Assembly: GCF_000284015.1 (NCBI RefSeq)
Contig: NC_016943.1
Span: forward strand, 4,691,541 to 4,755,540
Direction: 5' to 3'
Origin: Blastococcus saxobsidens DD2
GTDB taxonomy: Bacteria; Actinomycetota; Actinomycetes; Mycobacteriales; Geodermatophilaceae
DNA: 64,000 nucleotides
The first letter of the stretch is position 1; each line of letters opens with the position of its first letter. Made by a program: the position numbers and the translations under genes. Below the pieces are notes generated by a model that saw nothing but the letters and a program-made list of their open reading frames with translations, did no database searches and was not told the origin of the DNA. Shown in pieces: positions 3,616 through 41,539 of the stretch.

Positions 3616-4160
3616 GGCATGGCGAGACATGGGCGCACCGTAGGCACCGGGTGGTCGGCGTCTCGGGCGGCGCGCCCGCAGACACCCTCCAGTCGACGAC
3701 GCAAGTAGCCGGGGCGTCCCAGCCGTCACCGCAGCGCTGGTCGCGGACCAGCAGCCGCTCCTCCGGCCTTACCGAGGTCCCGATGAATTAACCTCCCGCG
3801 CCATCCCCAGCCGAAATGGCTGCCAGCTCCCCTGCCGCGAGAAGTGCGCGTAGAGGGATCCCTTGCGGTGGTCACCCGCCGAGCCGATGGGCGACGTCCG
3901 CGGCGCCCGGTACGGGTTCCTCCTATGGAGCAGTCTCGGTCCCCATTCGACTCGTGTTGTCCGCGGTACTGATGCGGTTGCTAGCACTCTAGGCCGGTCA
4001 GGCAGGGACTGCGCGGTGCCGATATCTGAGGTGACCGGCTTGCCATGATTAGCCCCCCGGCGCGCTGGGCGAGCATGACGCGTACGCGAGGTCAGCGGCC
4101 GGCCCGGTGAGCTCAGACATATGCCCGCGAGAGCATTGGACTGGGCCGGAGAATCGAGGC
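3616..4160. other. Gene-poor stretch after nirK
   Basis: No supported gene in about 545 bases. The only short open frames lack ribosome sites and family resemblance. A single CIRCE-like half site (TAGCACTC near 3982) has no partner. No clear terminator hairpin was seen. Confidence 0.5.
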
Positions 4161-17874: not shown

Positions 17875-18216
17875 TCAGGTGGTGGCGAGGACGCGGGCGC
17901 CGGCGGTCGGCCCGGTCGATCCGGCATGTGGGGCGGCTTCTCCGCCCCCCGCGGCGTTCTCGCTGCTCTCGGCGCCTTCGAGGTGGTCGACGATGCGGCG
18001 GGCGGCGCCGGTCACCGTGGCCGCGGCGGCGCGGACGACCTCGGTGTCCCCGGCCGACCAGGCGGCGACGTAGGGGACGGTGTAGGCGCCGGAGTCCAGC
18101 CCGGCCCAAGCGGTGACGATGTAGGCGACCGACTCGGCTTCGGCCTCCGCCCGCCCGCGGCAGCCGGTGTAGTCGTAGCCCTCGGCGGTGTGCCCGCACT
18201 CGATGTGCGCGAGCTC
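17875..18216 (-). pseudogene. ardC: ardC-like antirestriction gene, 3' half
   Basis: The minus strand from 18216 reads ELAHIECGHTAEGYDYTGC, then AEAEAESVAYIVTAWAGLDS and YVAAWSAG, and ends at 17875. This is the C-terminal metallopeptidase-like part of ArdC proteins, starting inside the H-E-L-A-H zinc motif. Its 5' half lies at 22313-23053. Joining them restores frame exactly (247 plus 114 codons). Confidence 0.85.
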
Positions 18217-18220
18217 TTTT

Positions 18221-18230
18221 CCGCACCAAG
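18221..18230 (+). repeat. Left terminal inverted repeat of the recombinase element
   Basis: CCGCACCAAG lies 4 bases inside the left junction. Its exact reverse complement is at 22293-22302 near the right junction. Confidence 0.7.
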
Positions 18231-18456
18231 ATCGTTGTGTGCAGACGATCGCGGTGACCGGCCGGACCGGTGCAGCGCAGGGCGCACTAACGTGTTGACG
18301 TGGCGTCTTGGCTCCGAAGGGTTGGCCAGTACCTCGGCCTGATCTATCGCGATGACGGGACCTGGAAGATCGGTCGCGGCTACCCGAAGCCGCCGCGGAG
18401 CAGCCGTCGCTCGCGGCCCTCTCGCTAGGGACCGTTTCTCATCGTCGTCTCCGTAC

Positions 18457-20973
18457 TCATGGCGGTGTGATGGCCGCTGGGGTGGCTGGAATGGCGGGGA
18501 GGCCGAGGTCGGTGGTCGTTCGGCTGCGGCGCATCTGGGCGAGCTTCTGTTCGGCCGCGGCGAGGCTGGTCTCCAGGCCGTCGACCTCGCCGAGCCAGTC
18601 CTGATCCTTGGCCTCGGCCAGCCGGGCGTGGAGGTTGGCTCTGATCTCTTCCAGCCGGTGCTGCTGCGCGGGGTCGGGCCGCAGCATGGGGCAGCGGATG
18701 CAGGCGTGCTCGTGCTGGCAGGGGGTGCCGTAGGCGCGCCCGCAGACGCCGAGCTCGACCTTGCGCCGTTGGAAGTGGCCGAGGAACTCGTCCCATTCGG
18801 CGTCGGTCGGCTCGCGGTACTCCTCGCTGGGTCGCACCGCCCTGCGCCGGGCGAGGAAGCCGCGGTAGTGCTCGACGACGTCGGAGTCATAGACGGCGAC
18901 GTAGATCTGGGTGGTGGCCAGCGTCTGGTGGCCGAGGATCTTCGCCGCGATGTGGATCGGCAGGCCGGCGGCGACGGCTTCGGTGGCGAAGAGCCGCCGG
19001 AAGTCGTGCGGGGAGAACCGCATGGGCGTGCCGTCGGGAGCGGTCAGCCCGGCGGCGGTGACCAGCCGGTCGAGCAGCACCCGCACGTAGTGGTGGGTCA
19101 GGCAGTGCGCCGAGGCGCCCCACCAGCGTTGGAACAGGAACGGCAGCGCGGAGCTGTGCACGCGTTCCATGTGGTCGTAGCGGGAGACCAGCGGGATCTG
19201 CTGGTGGCCGGCGCGCACTCGGGCGATCACGGCGGCGAGCACGTCGGCCAGCTCGGGGCTGACCACGAGCAGCCGTTCCCGGTCGGTCTTCGATGGCACG
19301 ATCTGCAGCAGCGGCACCACCTCGCCGGTGTCGGGCACGGTGTAGGCGACGAAGGCCCGGTGGGTGAGCTCGAGCATCTCCTCGATGCGCATCCCGGTGT
19401 GCCGGAGCACCTCGACGATGGCCCAGGTCCAGAACGCGTTGTCCTCGGCGAGGGTGAGGTTGCACCGCGGGCCGCCGTCGGGGTCGTCGACGTAGACGAC
19501 GCCAGGTCGCCGGGTGCTGGCGGCGCGCTGGCCGGTCGCGACCGCCGAGCGCCGCCGCTGCACTCCGTCGAGGTCGAAGGTCTCGCCGGGAGCGACGGCG
19601 GAGGCGGCCTGTAGCAGCGCCGCCGCAGTCCGCCGACCGGTCTCGGCGGCGTCGACCAGCGCGGGCAGCCCCGAGGCCTGGGTGCGGGTGCGCTGGTGCA
19701 TGCGGGCGGTGGTGCGGGTGCGCTGCTTGCCCATTCCGCGCAGGTCGTTGGCGCTGACCGGGTTGGGAGCGACCCACCGCCCCCAACGGAGCGGTTCCTC
19801 CAGCGCCCAGTGGGTCAGGTCGGCGTAGAACGCCCGCACCGCCATCAGGATCGCGTGCGGGTCCTCGCGGCGTTCCCCGATCCGGTGGTTGCCATAGCGG
19901 ATCTCGCCCAGCCGGCTCTTCCAACCCCGCACCATCTGCTGGGACAGCTGGAACGAGTCGATGCCCGGTTCGTGGAGTTCCAGGTCGCGCCAGAACAGCA
20001 GCACCAGCTTGGTCGCCAGCTGGCGCAGCGAGGCGTAGTCCATGCCGGCCTGCCGCTCGTGCAGGTAGTCCACCAGCAGGTCGCGGACCGGACGGCACTC
20101 CACGTCGTAGCCGTCGACCAGCTCCTCCACGGTCAGCTGCCCGCGTCGGCTGGCCGCCCAGATGCTCGGTGGGCTGCCCGGCGGCAGGATGCCGGCCCGC
20201 AGCAACAGCACGTACCAGTAGCTGTGCTGGCGCTGGCTGTATCCGGCCTGCGCCCGGTAGGCCTCCACGCAGTCGGCAAGGGTGACGTCAGCGAGCCGGC
20301 CGCCGTTGTGGATGAGGATGCGGGTCAGCTGACAGAAGGCCAGCCGCCGATCCGCCGGGGTCAACCGCGTGTCGTCCTCGGTGAACAGGGCGTCCAGCGC
20401 GGCGAACCCGTCCGGGTCGTGGCGGGCGCGGAACCGCTCCAGCACGCTGGCCGAGCGCAGCGCATACAGCCAGGCGTAGCTCGGCCGCAGCGCGCCGAGC
20501 ACGATCAGCCGGCCGACCGCCCCGGTGAGCTGTGCGCGGCGGTCAGGGCCGGTCTGCAGCCCGTCGACGTCCACCAGGTCGGCCCAGTCGGAGCCGGCGG
20601 CGTCCGCGCCGCAGGCCTGCCAGCGCTGCTGCCAGGACCCGCCGGGAAAGGTCTGCAGCCAGTCCAGCAGCAGTCCGACCGCGGCGCGACGGCGGCGCCG
20701 CTCTTTGACCGGCACCCCACCGCCCAGCTCGTCCAGCGCGGCGAGGACCTCGCTGCGGCTGCGGGCGGTCTCCGGCCACACGCTCGGCCGCGCCAGGATC
20801 GGGGTCGGCAGCGTCGGCGTGCGGAAGTCGTGCTGCTCGGACGGCCGGCGGGCGGTGCGCGGGCCACGTCCGCGCGGCGCCGGCACCGCATCGACGTAAC
20901 GGTCCGCCCCGGAATCGACGCCCTGCTCTACGAGCTCCTGACCGGACTGGCGGCCGGTGGTCTCAGCGCGCAT
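18457..20973 (-). CDS. Large tyrosine recombinase, TnpB-like
   Basis: 838 aa from ATG 20973, which overlaps the stop of the upstream recombinase. The catalytic residues are in the C-terminal third: R in HTGMRIEEMLELT, H-x-x-R in SPHDFRRLFAT, H in LGHQTLATTQ and the nucleophile Y in QIYVAV. A Cys-rich segment follows (CGRAYGTPCQHEHACIRCPML), probably a zinc knuckle, then a coiled coil. It is longer than Tn554 TnpB (about 630 aa) because of an extended N-terminus. It should act with the partner gene in strand exchange. Confidence 0.88.
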   Translation of the reverse strand: MRAETTGRQSGQELVEQGVDSGADRYVDAVPAPRGRGPRTARRPSEQHDFRTPTLPTPILARPSVWPETARSRSEVLAALDELGGGVPVKERRRRRAAVGLLLDWLQTFPGGSWQQRWQACGADAAGSDWADLVDVDGLQTGPDRRAQLTGAVGRLIVLGALRPSYAWLYALRSASVLERFRARHDPDGFAALDALFTEDDTRLTPADRRLAFCQLTRILIHNGGRLADVTLADCVEAYRAQAGYSQRQHSYWYVLLLRAGILPPGSPPSIWAASRRGQLTVEELVDGYDVECRPVRDLLVDYLHERQAGMDYASLRQLATKLVLLFWRDLELHEPGIDSFQLSQQMVRGWKSRLGEIRYGNHRIGERREDPHAILMAVRAFYADLTHWALEEPLRWGRWVAPNPVSANDLRGMGKQRTRTTARMHQRTRTQASGLPALVDAAETGRRTAAALLQAASAVAPGETFDLDGVQRRRSAVATGQRAASTRRPGVVYVDDPDGGPRCNLTLAEDNAFWTWAIVEVLRHTGMRIEEMLELTHRAFVAYTVPDTGEVVPLLQIVPSKTDRERLLVVSPELADVLAAVIARVRAGHQQIPLVSRYDHMERVHSSALPFLFQRWWGASAHCLTHHYVRVLLDRLVTAAGLTAPDGTPMRFSPHDFRRLFATEAVAAGLPIHIAAKILGHQTLATTQIYVAVYDSDVVEHYRGFLARRRAVRPSEEYREPTDAEWDEFLGHFQRRKVELGVCGRAYGTPCQHEHACIRCPMLRPDPAQQHRLEEIRANLHARLAEAKDQDWLGEVDGLETSLAAAEQKLAQMRRSRTTTDLGLPAIPATPAAITPP

Positions 20974-22171
20974 CGCGGGCCTGCCCGAGCAGCTCGCGCA
21001 GCGAGTCCGGGCGGTAGCCGCCCGACGGCGGCGCTGCCGGCTGCCGTGCCGGCCGGTCACCGCGCGCCCGGTGGTGCTCGAGCACCCGGGCGACCACCGC
21101 GTCCTCGCGTGGACGCAGGTAGATCTGCGTGGTGGCCAGCTGCGCGTGCCCGAGCACCCACTGCACGTCGGTCAGCGTCAGCCGCGGATCCTCGGCCATC
21201 CGGAAGGCCGCGGTGTGCCGCAGATCGTGCAGCGTCCAGCCGGTGCCCAGCTCCTCGTTGGCCCGCTGCAGCACCCGCCGCATCGCCGAATAGGTCAGCG
21301 GCCGGTGCGGTGCCCGGCGGGTCAGCCACAACGCCTGCTGCCCGGCCGGCCGGTCCTGCCGCTGCTGATAGAGCCGTAGCCACACGAACGCGTCCGCCGA
21401 CCCGGGCAGCCACTGCAGCCGACCGCTGCCCTTGCGATGCACCCCGATCCGCTGAGCGCCCACGTCGACCCGGTCCACGCTCACCCCGAGCAGCTCGCTG
21501 GCCCGGGCGCCGGTGCTGACGTAGAGGGCCAGCAGCGCCCGGTCCCGGTCACTGCGCATCGCCGCGAACAACGTGTCGAACAAGTGATCTGGCAGGCTGC
21601 GCGGCAGCCGGGCCGGCGTCTTCTGCCGCAGCGGCGCGCGGCGGTGCCGCTCCGGCGGCGCCATCGGATTGGCGTGCGCACCCACCCGCTGCCCGCCGCG
21701 GCCGACCGCCTCCGGCACCGGGTTGACCACCGGACCGTCCCCGGCCGCCATCCGGTCGGCGTAGAAGCCGCGCAGCACCGCCAGGTTGTGGTTGATCGTC
21801 GCCGGCGCGTACCCGACCCGCTCTCCCACCCGGCCGGCGCGCGTCGCGCCGCCGGCAGTCGTCGCGGCCAGCCGCATCCACAGCACGAAGTCGCGGGCCT
21901 CGACCCGACTCGCCCGCTGCCAGCCCAGCTCCACGGCCGCCAGAAACCGCCACCAGCGCAGCAGCGCGAGCGCGTAGGACCGCACGCTGCCGGTGGCAGC
22001 GCCGCTGGCCAGCAATGAGCACAGGTAGTCCGCGATCGCCGGCACCGGCACCCCCGCAGCGTCGAGCACCGCCACCCCGGGCAGCTCGTCGCTCACCCGG
22101 ATCCCGCCAACCGCGGCCACCGTCAACCCCGTCACGTCCCGTGACGGATCACACTCCCCGGCCCTCGCCAC
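20963..22171 (-). CDS. Tyrosine recombinase, TnpA-like
   Basis: 402 aa. The start is taken as GTG 22171 behind GGGGAGGAG; an ATG lies six codons upstream. The N-terminal SAM-like core-binding domain is about 40-190, the catalytic domain about 210-375. R in STGARASELLGV, HDLRHTAA and LGHAQLATTQIYLR are all present. It is cotranslated with the TnpB-like gene. The frame upstream stays open into the ardC 5' half (see findings). Confidence 0.88.
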   Translation of the reverse strand: MARAGECDPSRDVTGLTVAAVGGIRVSDELPGVAVLDAAGVPVPAIADYLCSLLASGAATGSVRSYALALLRWWRFLAAVELGWQRASRVEARDFVLWMRLAATTAGGATRAGRVGERVGYAPATINHNLAVLRGFYADRMAAGDGPVVNPVPEAVGRGGQRVGAHANPMAPPERHRRAPLRQKTPARLPRSLPDHLFDTLFAAMRSDRDRALLALYVSTGARASELLGVSVDRVDVGAQRIGVHRKGSGRLQWLPGSADAFVWLRLYQQRQDRPAGQQALWLTRRAPHRPLTYSAMRRVLQRANEELGTGWTLHDLRHTAAFRMAEDPRLTLTDVQWVLGHAQLATTQIYLRPREDAVVARVLEHHRARGDRPARQPAAPPSGGYRPDSLRELLGQARDAR

Positions 22172-22292
22172 AGCGGCTCCTCCCCACATCGGTGGAGAGA
22201 GCGCAGCAGCCAACCAGCCCGGATGATCGCAACCGAACCCGCGACGGCGAGTCCGCTGCGCGCGAACCGGCCGCGCACGCTCACCGACCCGG

Positions 22293-22302
22293 CTTGGTGC
22301 GG
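22293..22302 (-). repeat. Right terminal inverted repeat of the recombinase element
   Basis: CTTGGTGCGG on the plus strand is the reverse complement of the left repeat and lies 10 bases inside the right junction. Confidence 0.7.
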
Positions 22303-22312
22303 TCAATAGGTC

Positions 22313-23053
22313 GTGGGCGAGGGTCTTCACCGCCTGCGCGTCGGCGACATCCGGACGCACCCTGACCGTACGGGCGGCCGGGTCGGAGAGGCCGTTGGCC
22401 TGCCCGCAGTCCTCGCGGGTGAGCGTGTAGCCGTGGCCGGCGATCTGGGAGGCCAGCGCGTCCCACAGGGCGGCGGGGGCGTCACCGGTCAGCAGCTCGG
22501 GGACGATGTCGGGCAGCGGGTCGCCCTCGGTCTGGGAGATGTCGAAGACGTGCGCGACGCGGAACCCGCGCAGCACCCGCGCCCCGGCCGGCCGGTCGGC
22601 GTCCCCACCGGAAGGCTCCCCCGCCGCCCCCGGGGCGGGTGCGGCCAGGTCGGCGCTTGCCTTCTTGGGCGTGTAGGTGCAGGGGGCCAGGACCGCGAGC
22701 CCGGTGGACCCCTTGAGCACGCTGCGGCCCAGCGCCTTCCAGGTGCCGAACCCGGCGACCCGGGTCGGGCTGATGCCCAGCCGGGCGGCCTGCAGCCCGA
22801 TCAACAGCTGGTTGCCCAGGCTGTAGGTGTGGAACTTCGCGGCGGCATCGAGCATCGCCCGCCACTGCGGATCGGCGGTGAGCGCCTCGACCTGCTCGCC
22901 GATCTGGTCATGCAGGGCGGCGATCCTCGCCGCCCGGGCGGCGTCGGCTGCCTCCCGCTGCGCCGGACTCAGCTTCGACCGCCGACTCCGGCTCCCCCTG
23001 CTGCCCGTGCCGTTGGCCGCGCTGCTGCGTGTGCTGCTGATGGTGGTGGTCAT
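22313..23053 (-). pseudogene. ardC: ardC-like antirestriction gene, 5' half
   Basis: ATG 23053 follows GGGAGG. 247 codons encode the ssDNA-binding N-terminal ArdC domain (KFHTYSLGNQLLIGLQAARL, VAGFGTWKALGRSVLKGSTG, VAHVFDISQTEG, DALASQIAGHGYTL) and end in AVKTLAH, the first His of the HExxH motif. The rest of the gene is at 17875-18216. ArdC proteins protect incoming plasmid or ICE DNA from restriction. Interruption here should remove the peptidase-like half. Confidence 0.85.
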
Positions 23054-23180
23054 CTGGACCCTCCCGGAGCTGGAGCCGAAACCGGTACGGGAGGAACTGC
23101 GGAACGGGTGTTCTGCCACCCATTCCCCCGGCCCGTCCGGCACAGAGCTCTGCTCAGGGGCCGGGAGCGACGGCGGGGGA

Positions 23181-23244
23181 CGACCGGACCAAGACTGCTT
23201 CCGCAGCGGAGCGCCCGAAGGGCGGAAGGATCTTGGTCCGGTCG
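23181..23244. repeat. 14-bp perfect inverted repeat upstream of ardC
   Basis: CGACCGGACCAAGA at 23181-23194 is the exact reverse complement of 23231-23244. Inside it CTTCCG pairs with CGGAAG at 23199-23226. It lies about 130 bases before the ardC start and could be an operator, attenuator or nick-site hairpin. Confidence 0.6.
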
Positions 23245-23580
23245 GGAGGAGACGGCGCGGGAGGCCCCTACGCTGAGCTGCCGGACGGGTCGGGGGATCA
23301 GCATGCACAGCCCGCCGCAGGCGGACCTTGACGACGGCGCAGCCGGCGCCACGCGCAGCGTGGCCCGAAGGGTGCCCCTGGCCCGGCCCAGCGTTTGCGG
23401 CACGACGACGTCGACGGCGTCCCCACCGGCCGGGGAGTTTCGGTGACCCGACACATCGCGGAGGCCCCTGGCGGACCAGTCACGGGCTCCGCGGTCTCGC
23501 CGTGCCCCGGGTGCGGTGTCCAGCGCCATGAGTCGAGGATGGCCAGGCCGGCGCCCGCCCGAGGGTGTCCGTCCGGATGT

Positions 23581-25802: not shown

Positions 25803-26807
25803 TTAGTTGTTCTGGATGAGGGCCTCCCTGCTGGGCTGGTTGATCCAGGCGGCGGTCGGCAGCGGTGGCGGGGTGGGGCGCCGGTGGCCGAAGCGGGTGG
25901 GGTTGGCCGCGTAGGCCGCTGCCAGGGTCGCGGCCCGCTGGGCGCGGACCTCACCGGCGGTGCCGTGGTGCACCGAGGCCGGGGTGTGCAGCCCGAGCCC
26001 GGAGTGGCGGTGGTCGTGGTTGTAGTAGGCGAAGAACGCCTCGCAGAACGCGCGGGCGTCGGCCAGGCAGCCGAACCGGTCGGGGAAGACCGGGGCGTAC
26101 TTCAGCGTCTTGAACGCCGACTCGCTGAACGGGTTGTCGTTGGAGACGTGCGGCCGGGAGTGGGAGCGGGCCACGCCGAGGTCGACCAGCAGCTGGGCGA
26201 CCGGCTTGGAGGTCATTGAGGTGCCGCGGTCGGCGTGCACGCTGCCCGGAGCGCCGTGCACGGCGACCGCGTCGGCGATCAGGGCCTTGGCGATGTCGGC
26301 GTCCTCGCGGGCGGCGACGGTCCAGCCCACGACGTAGCGGGAGAAGATGTCGAGCACGACGTAGAGGTCGTAGTAGACGCCGCGCTGCGGTCCGCGCAGC
26401 TTGGTGATGTCCCAGCTCCACACCTGCCCTGGCGCGGTGGCCAGCAGCTCGGGCTTGGCCCGCGGCGGATGGGTGGCCTGCCGGCGCCGCTCCCGGGACT
26501 GCCCGGCCGTGCGCAGCAGCCGGTGCATGGTCGACATCGAGCACAGGTAGCTGCCCTCGTCCAGCAGCGTCGCCCAGCACTGGGCCACGGACTTGTCGGC
26601 GAACCGGGCGCTGTTGAGCGTGGCCAGCACCTGCTCCCGCTCGGCGTCGGTGAGCGCGTTCGGCGGTGCCGACCGCGGCGGCTTGTCCTGCCGGGGCGCC
26701 GGTGGAATCTGGGCGCGGTAGTGCGTTGCGCGTGACCAGCCCAGCAGCGCACACGCCTGCGTGGTCGAGGTGTGCGCGGCCAGCTCGGCCACCGCTGGGG
26801 CGATCAC
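25803..26807 (-). CDS. IS3-family transposase OrfB (DDE)
   Basis: 334 aa from GTG 26807, which overlaps the orfA stop (GTGA). The rve integrase core is complete: D in VWSWDITKLRG, D in HADRGTSMTS, E in NPFSESAFKTLKY, and a C-terminal YNHDHRHSGLGLHTP block. An upstream HTH_21-like region (VLATLNSARFADKSVAQCWATLL) is present. It may be made by coupling or by a -1 frameshift in the AAGAAG run at the end of orfA. Confidence 0.92.
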   Translation of the reverse strand: MIAPAVAELAAHTSTTQACALLGWSRATHYRAQIPPAPRQDKPPRSAPPNALTDAEREQVLATLNSARFADKSVAQCWATLLDEGSYLCSMSTMHRLLRTAGQSRERRRQATHPPRAKPELLATAPGQVWSWDITKLRGPQRGVYYDLYVVLDIFSRYVVGWTVAAREDADIAKALIADAVAVHGAPGSVHADRGTSMTSKPVAQLLVDLGVARSHSRPHVSNDNPFSESAFKTLKYAPVFPDRFGCLADARAFCEAFFAYYNHDHRHSGLGLHTPASVHHGTAGEVRAQRAATLAAAYAANPTRFGHRRPTPPPLPTAAWINQPSREALIQNN

Positions 26808-27241
26808 TTCTTCGACGGCTTGTCGGTGTCCGCGCTCTCGGAGAGCAGTTCCAAGAGCGCGTGTGCTTTTCCCACAACGTCCAGGGCGGCCTTGGTCTTG
26901 GCCAGCTCGGCCTCGGCCCGCTCCGCGCGGGCCCGCAGCCGCTCGAGCTCGACCTGCTCCGGCGTTCGCTTGGCCGGCCGCGGGCGGCTCTCCAGCCCGG
27001 CCAGGGCGCCGGCGTCGCGGGCGCGGCGCCACTCGACCAGGTGCGAGGAGTACAGGCCTTCCCGGCGCAGCAGCGCGCCCCGCTGGCCGGGCTCGGTGGC
27101 GTCGTACTCGGCCAGGATCTGCAGCTTGTACTCGGCGGTGAAGGAACGCCGCCGGGGACGCTCGGCTCGAGGACTCACCTGTCCATCGTCGGTCACTGGC
27201 GCAGCGGAAAGGTCTGCCGTCGTCATCGTCATCGTGATCAA
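26804..27241 (-). CDS. IS3-family transposase OrfA (HTH)
   Basis: 145 aa. RRSFTAEYKLQILAEYDA and ALLRREGLYSSHLVEWRRARDAG are the standard OrfA helix-turn-helix, followed by a leucine-zipper-like coiled coil (QVELERLRARAERAEAELAKTKAALDVVG). It binds the terminal repeats and joins with OrfB to form the active transposase. Confidence 0.9.
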   Translation of the reverse strand: MITMTMTTADLSAAPVTDDGQVSPRAERPRRRSFTAEYKLQILAEYDATEPGQRGALLRREGLYSSHLVEWRRARDAGALAGLESRPRPAKRTPEQVELERLRARAERAEAELAKTKAALDVVGKAHALLELLSESADTDKPSKK

Positions 27242-27301
27242 CCTGTCTCGCCCTGTGCGGAGGGAGAAAGAACTACCCGAGGTGTCTCACGTCAGCCTGA
27301 C

Positions 27302-27373
27302 GCACAGGGCACCGCCGACCGCATGAACCACCTGTGGACGCACGGCTCCGACATCGACCGCTACCTGTACTGA
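27302..27373 (+). pseudogene. Probable 3' end of the gene interrupted by the IS3 copy
   Basis: Immediately right of the IS3 end, one frame reads AQGTADRMNHLWTHGSDIDRYLY and stops at 27373. It has no start of its own and reads like a protein C-terminus. It could be the tail of the 25137-25775 gene. Confidence 0.4.
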
Positions 27374-27379
27374 CTCTTC

Positions 27380-27475
27380 TTACTTGAGGTGGGGGCTGGT
27401 GTGCCCGCCGCCGATCAGGAGCATGCGTAGCCGGTAGTTGTCCCGGTTGGGGAACCTCGGGTCCGGTGATGACGG
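27380..27475 (-). pseudogene. Transposase C-terminal remnant (ISL3-like)
   Basis: The minus strand reads FPNRDNYRLRMLLIGGG and stops at 27380. The NYRLRMLL block is common at the end of ISL3-type transposases. Only about 30 residues remain. Confidence 0.35.
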
Positions 27476-27562
27476 CGCCACGTCACCGAAGGCATCGGGT
27501 GACGGCTGTCCACGCAAGACCCGCCCGGTGGCCGGTCCCGCACAGGTGCGGTGAATTCCAGC

Positions 27563-29394
27563 GGTCGACGCAACGCGAGCCCGTGTTGATCTTCGTTGCA
27601 GAGCCTAGCCGTGTGACGGTGGGAGGGAAGGGCTTCGCATTTCGGCGCGGAAGCGGGCGGCTGGGGTGTCGTAGTTCAGGCCTTTGCGGGGGCGGGTGTT
27701 CAGTTCGTGCATGACCGCGGCGACGTGGGCGTCGGTGTGCACGGACAGGTCGGTGCCTTTGGGGAAGTACTGGCGCAGGAGGCCGTTGTAGTTCTCGTTC
27801 GCGCCGCGCTGCCAGGGGCTGCAGCGCTCGGCGAAGTAGATCGCCACGCCGGTGGCTCGGGCCAGCTCGCGGTGTCGGGCCATCTCCACGCCCTGGTCCC
27901 AGGTCAGGGTGCGTTTCATGTGCGCGGGCAGGGGCGCGAACGCGGCGGTGGCGGCGGCGTTGACCGTCTCGGCGGTGTGATCGACCGGCAGGTTGATCAC
28001 GATGCCGTACTGGGTGGTGCGTTCGCGCAGGGTCATCATCGCTGAGGCGCACCCCACGCCGAGGATGAGATCGCCTTCCCAGTGCCCGGCCTGCTGTTTG
28101 GTCTCCACCTCGGCTGGCCGCTGGTCGATCATGGTCATGTCGCGGACGGCGGCGCCGTGCCCGGATCGGGTCAGCCAGCGGGACTTGCGGATCCGCCGGC
28201 CGGTGCGCAGCTTGCGGCAGTAGCGCTTGTGCAGTCCCTGGCCGCCGGGCACCAGCAGCGCCCGGTAGATCGTCTCCGGGCACAGCCACATCGTCGGGTC
28301 GGTCGGGTAGGTGCGGCGCAGCCAGCCGCTGATCTCATCGGGTGACCAGCACCGGTTGAGCTTGCGCTGCACGAGCGTGCGCAGCCTCGGGTGGGCGATT
28401 AGCTTGTGCTGTCGGGGCCGGCGGCGCTGCTGGGCCGCGACGTGATCGGCGTGGTGGGGCAGGTAGCGGCCGTGCTCGTCGCGGTGTCGGTCCAGCTCCC
28501 GTTTGATCGTCGAGGGGTAGCGGCCCAGCTCGGCGGCGATCACCCGGATCGAGTAGTCCAGCCGCAGCAGGTCGGCGATCTGCAGCCGTTCGCGCAGCGA
28601 CAGGTAGCGGCTTGAGCGCTCGGTGGGCCGGGACGGCGGGGCGGTCTGCTGGTGGCGGCGGGCGCGGATGCGTGCGCCGGTTTTCCTGTGCACGCCCAGG
28701 ATCGTGGAGGCGGCGGTGTTGCTCAGCCCGGCACGCATCAGCTCCCAGTAGCGCGTGTCGCGCGCCAGCACGTCCGAGCGCGGTGCCCGCCGGCGGGTGA
28801 GTTCCTCGGCATGGCGTGCCGAGGTGCGAAGCGCACGCCGCTCAAGAGCCTCCCGCTCCCGGCGGGCGTGCTCATCGGCGCGGCGCCGTTGGTCCTCCCA
28901 CTGCCTGGCCAGGGGCGTCGGTATCCGCAGCCGCAGCGCGGCGGCCCGCGCGGTCAGGCCCTGCTTGCGCAGCTGCCCGTAGCGGCCGCGCCACCACCGA
29001 TAGCCCGTCGAACGACCCACCCCGGCGGCTCGAGTTGCCGCGCCGATCGAGTCGCCGCCTGCGAAGCGGCGCCAGAAGGCGTCCTCGACCCCGGCGTCGA
29101 CGGCCAGGTGATGCCGCCCGCGGGGGCCCGGTCGCTGCCGTTCCCAGTCGACCATAAGTGGGGAGCAGTAGCCCAGCTCGGCCGCGGCCTGCTCGACGCT
29201 GAGGCCCTCGTCCCGCAGCGCGAGGAACGCCTCCCGCAGCCACCGGTAGCCAGTCTCCTTGCCGATCCCGGCGGCGCGGGCGGACGGTTTGAGACCCCGC
29301 CCCTCCTTGACCGCCGCCAGGAACCGGATACCAGCAGCGGAATCCCGTCGCGCATGCACCAATGACCGCCTTCAAAGAAGGCGTTGCGTCGACC
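27563..29394. mobile_element. IS30-family insertion sequence
   Basis: 1.83 kb bounded by perfect 14-bp inverted repeats, GGTCGACGCAACGC at 27563-27576 and its complement at 29381-29394. One minus-strand transposase gene fills the element. No clear short target duplication was seen in the flanks. Confidence 0.85.
27605..29362 (-). CDS. IS30-family transposase with extended duplicated HTH N-terminus
   Basis: 585 aa; most IS30 transposases are 300-480 aa. The C-terminal DDE core is intact: GHWEGDLILG, TWDQGVEMARH and NENYNGLLRQYFPKGTDLS. A central IS30 HTH_38 region is present (SLRERLQIADLLRLDYSIRVIAAELGR). The N-terminal 170 residues contain two related HTH units (RAAGIGKETGYRWLRE near 31 and RAAGVGRSTGYRWWRGRY near 111), probably an internal duplication. 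The start is TTG or the adjacent GTG. Confidence 0.9.
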   Translation of the reverse strand: MVHARRDSAAGIRFLAAVKEGRGLKPSARAAGIGKETGYRWLREAFLALRDEGLSVEQAAAELGYCSPLMVDWERQRPGPRGRHHLAVDAGVEDAFWRRFAGGDSIGAATRAAGVGRSTGYRWWRGRYGQLRKQGLTARAAALRLRIPTPLARQWEDQRRRADEHARREREALERRALRTSARHAEELTRRRAPRSDVLARDTRYWELMRAGLSNTAASTILGVHRKTGARIRARRHQQTAPPSRPTERSSRYLSLRERLQIADLLRLDYSIRVIAAELGRYPSTIKRELDRHRDEHGRYLPHHADHVAAQQRRRPRQHKLIAHPRLRTLVQRKLNRCWSPDEISGWLRRTYPTDPTMWLCPETIYRALLVPGGQGLHKRYCRKLRTGRRIRKSRWLTRSGHGAAVRDMTMIDQRPAEVETKQQAGHWEGDLILGVGCASAMMTLRERTTQYGIVINLPVDHTAETVNAAATAAFAPLPAHMKRTLTWDQGVEMARHRELARATGVAIYFAERCSPWQRGANENYNGLLRQYFPKGTDLSVHTDAHVAAVMHELNTRPRKGLNYDTPAARFRAEMRSPSLPPSHG

Positions 29395-39967: not shown

Positions 39968-41539
39968 GTGAAGTCTGCAGGGGAGATCATGGAAATTCTG
40001 GAAGCGTTCGACCTGACCGGGTCCTACCGCGATGCCGGCGAGCTGGCCGGCTGCTCGCATCACACCGTCGCGCACTACGTCGGGCGGCGTGAGGCCGGCG
40101 GGATCAGCGATCGGCCGGCGGCGCGCCCGCGGCTGATCGATGAGTTCCTGCCCAAGGTCGAGGAGTGGATGGAGCGCTCGAAGGGCACGATCCGCGCGGA
40201 CAAGGCCCACGAGAAGCTCGTTGCCCTCGGCTACACCGGCTCGGAGCGCACCACCCGCCGCGCGGTCGCGGAGGTGCGGACAGCGTTTCGGGCCGGGCGG
40301 GTGCGGGTGCACCGGCCGTGGGTGACCGAGCCGGGCATGTGGCTGCAGTACGACTTCGGCGACGGCCCGCTCATCGGCGGGGCGAGGACCACGCTGTTCT
40401 GCGCGTGGCTGGCCTGGGCACGGTTCCGGGTGGTGCTGGCGATCCGGGACAAGACCACCGCCAGCGTGTTCGCCGCGCTGGACGTGACGCTGCGCCGCCT
40501 GGGTGGGGCGCCGACGTACGTGCTGACCGACAACGAGAAGACCGTCACCGTCGAACACGTCGCCGGGATGCCGGTGCGCAATCAGCAGACCGTCGCCTTC
40601 GCCCGGCACTACGGGATCACGATCCACACCTGCGAGCCGGCCGACCCCGCCTCCAAGGGCGGCAGCGAGAACACTGTGAAGCTGGCCAAGGCCGACCTGG
40701 TGCCCACCGACACCAACCTGCGGGAGGCCTACGGCTCCTTCGCCGAGCTGGAGGCCGCCTGCGAGGCGTTCTGCGACCAGGTCAACGCCCGGATCCACCG
40801 GGTGACCCGCCGTGCTCCGGTGGACATGCTGGCCGAGGAGCAGCAGCGGCTGCACCCGATCCCGGCCGCGCCGCACACCGTCGCGCTCGGGGTGACCCGC
40901 ACGGTGGCGGTGAACACGCCGCTGGTCACCTTCGACGGCGGGCAGTACTCGGTGCCGCACACCCTGCTGAGCGCCACCGTCTGGGTCCGGGTCCACGGGC
41001 AAGGCTCCGGTGAGCGGGTGGTGATCGTGCACGTCGGTGACGCCGGGCCGGTCGAGGTTGCCCGCCACGCCCGCGCCACCCCGGGCAGCCCGCAGCTGAT
41101 CGATGAGCACTTCCCGCCCGCACCGGTCGGCGCGCTGGACCGCCAGCCCAAGCCGAAGACCGCCGCCGAGGTGGAGTTCCTGGCTCTGGGCGACGGGGCC
41201 CGGCTGTGGTTGACCGAGGCCGCCGCGGTGGGCACGACCAAGATGCGGGTCAAGATGGCCGCCGCGGTGACGATGGCCAAGCTCGTCGGCTCGGGCGAGG
41301 TGGACTGGGCGCTGGGGCACGCCGCGGTGCATGCCCGCTTCGCCGAGGCCGACCTGGGCTCGATCCTCGAACACCGGTCCGCCGGCACGAACGGGACCAG
41401 GCATTCCGCGGCCGAGGACCGCAGCCTGACCCAGGGCACCGCGGGCTGGGCCGCCCTCGGCGCCGCACCGACCACCGGTCCCAGCGCCAAGCCAGGCGCC
41501 GCCCCCGACACCGACGCCGACGCCGAGGTGACCCGATGA
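39968..41539 (+). CDS. istA: IS21 transposase IstA
   Basis: 523 aa. There is an N-terminal HTH (YRDAGELAGCSHHTVAHYVGRR), then the DDE core: D in LQYDFGDGP, D in VLTDNEKTV and E in SKGGSENTVKLAKADL. The C-terminal beta-barrel domain follows. The stop overlaps istB by four bases (ATGA). IstA performs cutting and joining with IstB. Confidence 0.94.
   Translation: MKSAGEIMEILEAFDLTGSYRDAGELAGCSHHTVAHYVGRREAGGISDRPAARPRLIDEFLPKVEEWMERSKGTIRADKAHEKLVALGYTGSERTTRRAVAEVRTAFRAGRVRVHRPWVTEPGMWLQYDFGDGPLIGGARTTLFCAWLAWARFRVVLAIRDKTTASVFAALDVTLRRLGGAPTYVLTDNEKTVTVEHVAGMPVRNQQTVAFARHYGITIHTCEPADPASKGGSENTVKLAKADLVPTDTNLREAYGSFAELEAACEAFCDQVNARIHRVTRRAPVDMLAEEQQRLHPIPAAPHTVALGVTRTVAVNTPLVTFDGGQYSVPHTLLSATVWVRVHGQGSGERVVIVHVGDAGPVEVARHARATPGSPQLIDEHFPPAPVGALDRQPKPKTAAEVEFLALGDGARLWLTEAAAVGTTKMRVKMAAAVTMAKLVGSGEVDWALGHAAVHARFAEADLGSILEHRSAGTNGTRHSAAEDRSLTQGTAGWAALGAAPTTGPSAKPGAAPDTDADAEVTR

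Follow-up and report, generated by a model that had tools for sequence, protein, structure and literature searches.

The window, a 64,000-nucleotide stretch of the Blastococcus saxobsidens DD2 genome, contains an ardC gene that is split into two parts by a 4,096-bp element encoding two tyrosine recombinases (Table 1). The two parts of ardC rejoin in frame as KTLAH|ELAHIE, with the cut separating the H codon of the HExxH motif from its E codon. An earlier note on this DNA had proposed exactly this cut, and it is borne out both by the rejoined reading frame and by the ardC matches in 13 sister-species genomes, among which the intact genes read KTLAHELAHIECGH. The interrupted gene still encodes its ssDNA-binding N-terminal domain. 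Further transposase genes lie near the ardC locus, at window positions 25803-29362 and 39968-41539; they have rve integrase cores, one of them with a Mu-type C-terminal domain.

Table 1. Features of the interrupted ardC locus, in window coordinates
Feature	Position	Strand	Evidence or remark
ardC 5' part, ssDNA-binding ArdcN domain, ending ...DAQAVKTLAH	22313..23053	minus	Pfam PF08401, 9.9e-11
Left hexamer GACCTA, apparently element-carried	22307..22312	minus	Identical in 3/3 copies
Left (tnpA-side) terminal inverted repeat, TTGACCGCACCAAG	22293..22306	minus	Kept in relatives
tnpA, tyrosine recombinase of ordinary size	20963..22171	minus	Pfam Phage_integrase, 8.8e-21
tnpB, long tyrosine recombinase	18457..21060	minus	Pfam Phage_integrase, 3.5e-15
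Right (tnpB-side) terminal inverted repeat, CTTGGTGCGGAAAA	18217..18230	minus	Kept in relatives
Right hexamer GAGCTC, the target's Glu-Leu codons	18211..18216	minus	Fits GARCTS of intact ardC genes
ardC 3' part, from ELAHIECGH..., remaining metallopeptidase domain	17875..18216	minus	Joined to the 5' part without a break in intact homologues
TnpAB transposon, whole, 4,096 bp, left hexamer included	18217..22312	minus	3 near-identical copies; empty sites in sister species

The two recombinase genes overlap and are co-directional. From the start chosen in the earlier note TnpA has 402 amino acids, and its frame is open farther upstream, into ardC; the catalytic R/K/HxxR/H/Y residues are visible as GARASELLG, RKGSG, HDLRH, LGHA and Y. 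The tnpB product has up to 867 amino acids, or 838 from a start at 20973, and combines the catalytic residues of its family (GMRIEE, SKTD, HDFRR, LGHQ and Y) with a Cys/His cluster at the C-terminus. Together with the Pfam matches, these residues confirm the assignment of two overlapping tyrosine recombinases. The 4,096-bp element holds no tnpC or third gene, just 240 bp separating the tnpB stop (18457) from the right end (18217). Its termini form an inverted repeat with 21-nt arms that are 81% complementary and a 14-bp core, TTGACCGCACCAAG on the left and, reverse-complemented, TTTTCCGCACCAAG on the right, identical at 12 of 14 positions; the end repeats first described as 10 bp long are therefore real, but longer.

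The element is present three times in the genome, which is a single 4.875-Mb contig, with 0-1 mismatch per 4,096 bp (4,095-4,096 of 4,096). Each copy interrupts a different ardC paralogue at the identical base and in the identical orientation relative to the gene, so the interruption is not a chance event. All three share the left junction CTCGCCCAC|GACCTATTGACC, while the right junction reads GCGGAAAA| followed by GAGCTC, GAACTC or GAACTG and then GCGCACATCGAG. We found no uninterrupted full-length ardC in the DD2 genome, where a fourth match is partial. Duplication of a single interrupted locus would account for the left hexamer and orientation common to all three, as well as for homology that reaches a few kb around ardC. 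We reject this highly improbable history on the divergence of the flanks: the copies of the element are at least 99.98% identical, whereas the ardC flanks are only about 77-89% identical (800 bp on each side) and the outer contexts differ, and transposition is a likelier explanation than gene conversion restricted precisely to the element. The same contrast between near-identical elements and diverged surroundings indicates that the copies moved independently and recently.

At the nucleotide level, the intact ardC genes of sister species read CT(C/G)GC(C/T)CAC GARCTS GC(G/C)CA(C/T). Because these intact genes carry GARCTS, it is the right, tnpB-side junction that has the target hexamer, and, on this comparison, the GACCTA at the left end would have arrived with the element. 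The comparison with sister species thus yielded intact genes that differ from the interrupted ones by neither duplication (the two hexamers share just their initial GA) nor deletion at the junction.

When genomes were scanned with an alignment of two TnpB proteins, that of the window and that of Nocardioides QY071, 80 loci were identified. Relatives at 57-69% TnpB identity share their ends and form one clade with an SH-aLRT support of 100, in a tree that left out two loci with frame-shifted TnpB (L037 and L103). Both of these are from Acidimicrobiia, with TnpB split over frames by decay or sequencing error (L037, 3462-5884; L103, 8001-10389). Of the eight clade members with a readable junction, seven are inserted between H and E of an HExxH-type motif; six of these lie in ardC genes of divergent sequence and the seventh in an M48 gene. 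Reading the relatives' flanks, as the earlier note had advised, thus revealed recurrent insertion at this position. Among the ArdC-type targets, those in Rhodococcus (L034, KTMIH|EAAH), Nocardioides carbamazepini (L035, KTLAH|ELGH) and Nocardioides sp. (L036, KTLAH|EFGH) match Pfam ArdcN and, across the junction, M78, the M78 match lying below the curated cut-off in the latter two; L103 (KTLAH|ELAY) and L037 (KTLAH|, left side only) match Pfam ArdcN, and L067 from Acidimicrobiaceae (|ELAHVLLH, right side only) is ArdC-type by sequence likeness.

The M48 insertion lies in the Nocardioides plasmid pCHL (L027) at SLAAH|ELAHVIRRD, where the joined protein matches Peptidase_M48 (5.8e-10) across the junction. 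The corresponding empty site exists in the Pimelobacter simplex plasmid pA-N39, which has the same gene order and an intact gene at SLAAHELAHVIRR. Compared with the recombinases of the ardC-inserted L035 and L036, those of L027 are 88-90% identical for TnpB and 88-92% for TnpA, so nearly the same enzymes have acted on two metallopeptidase families that are not homologous, inserting at the same pair of codons in each. The exception among the eight is L033, inserted in a DUF222 gene at RHE|RT, which is not an HExxH motif.

Several features vary within this group. The window copy is without cargo; L035 (11.1 kb), L027 (7.2 kb), L036 (5.2 kb) and L034 (4.9 kb) have additional DNA in the interval from tnpB to the right end; in L027 it includes hypothetical genes and an IS1380 transposase. 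In all three DD2 copies the reading frame of the ardC 5' half stays open across the left end and continues into tnpA (20963-23308 on the minus strand in the window), a possible ArdC-N::TnpA fusion; it is not a conserved feature, because L027, L035 and L036 have stops shortly past the junction. In Subtercola boreus (L032, 1-3760), the contig stops a few bases from both element ends, as expected of multicopy repeats that break assemblies.

The ends of more distant TnpAB pairs (38-50% identity) are recognisably similar, with TTGACYGSACTA lying about 1.1 kb ahead of tnpB. No HE was found at those of their junctions that are readable, many right ends being uncertain, and HE targeting is, as far as these sequences indicate, a trait of one clade. 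Two scans of viral contigs detected no TnpB relatives; matches to the end pattern in two viral contigs are attributable to chance, as they come without a right end and with long frames unlike TnpB. Across 396 genomes of the phylum and 399 of the order, the end pattern was found only in the DD2 genome, and the element is therefore rare among the genomes scanned.

How far the motif itself defines the target can be gauged from sites that were left alone. The pattern GCSCACGARYTSGSSCAY occurs at six more places in the DD2 genome, all uninterrupted and with metalloprotease-like translations; these intact AHE(L/F)(A/G)H genes are M6-like, M48-like, DUF4157-like and others, as named by eye. All three full-length ardC genes are interrupted versus none of the six other AHExxH genes (Fisher p about 0.012), and recognition therefore appears to extend past the motif codons. 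A site matrix derived from the relatives favours a recognition site that reaches past the motif: over -18..+18 the genome's own ardC sites score 29.6-31.7 versus 15.2-25.7 for the unused AHExxH sites, although over -12..+12 it hardly separates the two, and the matrix is confounded by ArdC homology, most of its rows being ArdC homologues. It is accordingly improbable that metallopeptidase genes in general serve as targets, with every HExxH coding sequence open to recognition; the M48 insertion by recombinases so similar to the ardC-inserted ones is what such breadth would predict, but the six intact genes beside three interrupted ardC genes, and the DUF222 insertion of L033, argue against it. 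The original proposal that the element targets conserved motif codons is in this way upheld for the three paralogues and for seven of eight readable relatives, and narrowed by the same intact sites and by L033. A more ambitious reading, which we put forward tentatively and at somewhat less than even confidence, is that the clade evolved the active-site codons of HExxH as its attachment site, protein chemistry keeping the nucleotides constant, and so enters ArdC/M78 and M48 genes that share only this motif.

The hexamers at the two junctions offer a second view of the insertion reaction. Left hexamers differ among relatives (GACCTA, GATCTG, GAACTG, GAGCTG and GAGCGG), and GACCTA is seen again in Nocardioides elements at ~60% TnpB identity. 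The initial bases of the left and right hexamers agree (GA...) in all clade members, and often also in distant elements, as would follow from a need for homology at the start of strand exchange. One distant TnpAB subgroup (for example L084, L091, L098 and L106) has left hexamers that end in AG (GAACAG, GCCCAG, GCTCAG and GCGTAG) and whose first 2-4 bases equal those of the right hexamer, hinting that just the first overlap bases come from, or match, the target.

In strand-biased circularizing integrative elements (SEs) and Tn554-related elements, the target hexamer comes to lie at the intA/tnpA end and the donor hexamer at the other (PMC10214605, PMC12486829). In the present element it is the tnpB end that has the target hexamer, which means either a reversed polarity or a left hexamer that is simply a constituent of the element. 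We also considered whether this element obeys the published rule. Every jump would then transfer a copy of the donor hexamer to the opposite side, and all three elements would descend from a single donor that had GACCTA as its target-side hexamer. Such a scheme has precedent in the elements for which the rule was published and would explain the variation of left hexamers among relatives; it is nonetheless rather unlikely, given the opposite side of the target hexamer, the recurrence of GACCTA in Nocardioides elements and the lack of a right-hand GACCTA copy in this genome. The identical left hexamer of the three copies could also stem from one common donor.

Taken together, the locus is very probably occupied by a Tn554-related, TnpC-less TnpAB site-specific transposon whose attachment sequence is centred on the CAC|GAG of ardC, the His-Glu codons of HExxH. 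From the class of the two enzymes, TnpA and TnpB probably catalyse excision of the element as a circle, which would then insert in one orientation at this attachment sequence. The outcome of insertion is one precise cut in a fixed orientation, with the target hexamer (GAR CTS) left intact at the tnpB end and GACCTA presumably supplied by the element at the tnpA end. Protein function leaves this stretch of DNA little room to vary: His and Glu have two codons each, and the surrounding context is conserved. The same site would thus be on offer in many ardC genes and, now and then, in an HExxH gene unrelated to them. The orientation is fixed because the site is asymmetric, and it therefore always places tnpAB downstream of, and in line with, the promoter of the host gene, which tnpAB may use. 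Genes of the ardC type reside on plasmids and further kinds of mobile DNA and would therefore provide the element with both renewed landing sites and vehicles.

These observations suggest that a mobile element can gain portable landing sites from the codon-level conservation of an enzyme motif. The favourite host gene is an anti-restriction gene of plasmids, linking the choice of target to the spread of conjugative DNA. The target, the H|E codons of ardC, and the polarity of the junction hexamers both appear new: in the literature searched, most subscription journals lying outside its scope, we found no description of ardC or HExxH codons as a transposon target. Nor did that literature yield the ends, empty sites or insertion rule of TnpC-less actinobacterial Tn554-like elements, which are given here at base resolution and with natural replicates.

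Tn554 of Staphylococcus, with its attachment site att554, encodes TnpA, TnpB and TnpC, prefers a single site, generates no target duplication and has 6-bp junction sequences. The element described here shares its TnpA/TnpB logic, its site specificity, the absence of target duplication and junction sequences of 6 bp; it differs in lacking tnpC and resistance cargo, in its target and in its actinobacterial host. The likeness to Tn554 drawn in the earlier note consequently holds for two co-directional overlapping recombinases, a fixed site and no duplication, and fails for tnpC and for the polarity of the hexamers, which in Tn554 place the target hexamer at the left (tnpA) end and the donor hexamer at the right (PMC10214605), opposite to the arrangement here. 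SEs carry intA-tfp-intB-srap and have the target hexamer on the intA side, whereas this element has two genes only and the target hexamer on the tnpB side; RIT elements have three tyrosine recombinases rather than two. Compared by tblastn with the window TnpB, NC_005073, which we take to be pBD2, gives 45.2% identity at 88% coverage, a match to a Famint41 or Famint27 copy.

In Van Houdt et al. 2012 (PMC3414803), pBD2 appears in Table 2 and carries a Famint41 protein. The paper describes actinobacterial elements related to Tn554 in which a long tyrosine recombinase accompanies a short one, a TnpC-less group included, and guesses at several similar attB sites for them. The kinship of our element with Tn554 rests on that paper and not on direct protein comparison. 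By its sequence the element fits the TnpC-less transposons of that group (Famint36/41), which likewise pair a very long tyrosine recombinase with one of normal size, adjacent, co-directional and without tnpC, and which occur on plasmids and chromosomes of Actinobacteria in near-identical multiple copies. Relatives of the present element are annotated in the same way. While ends and target are not given for Famint36/41 in the parts of PMC3414803 consulted, the ends, empty sites, target and hexamers are here defined for one clade.
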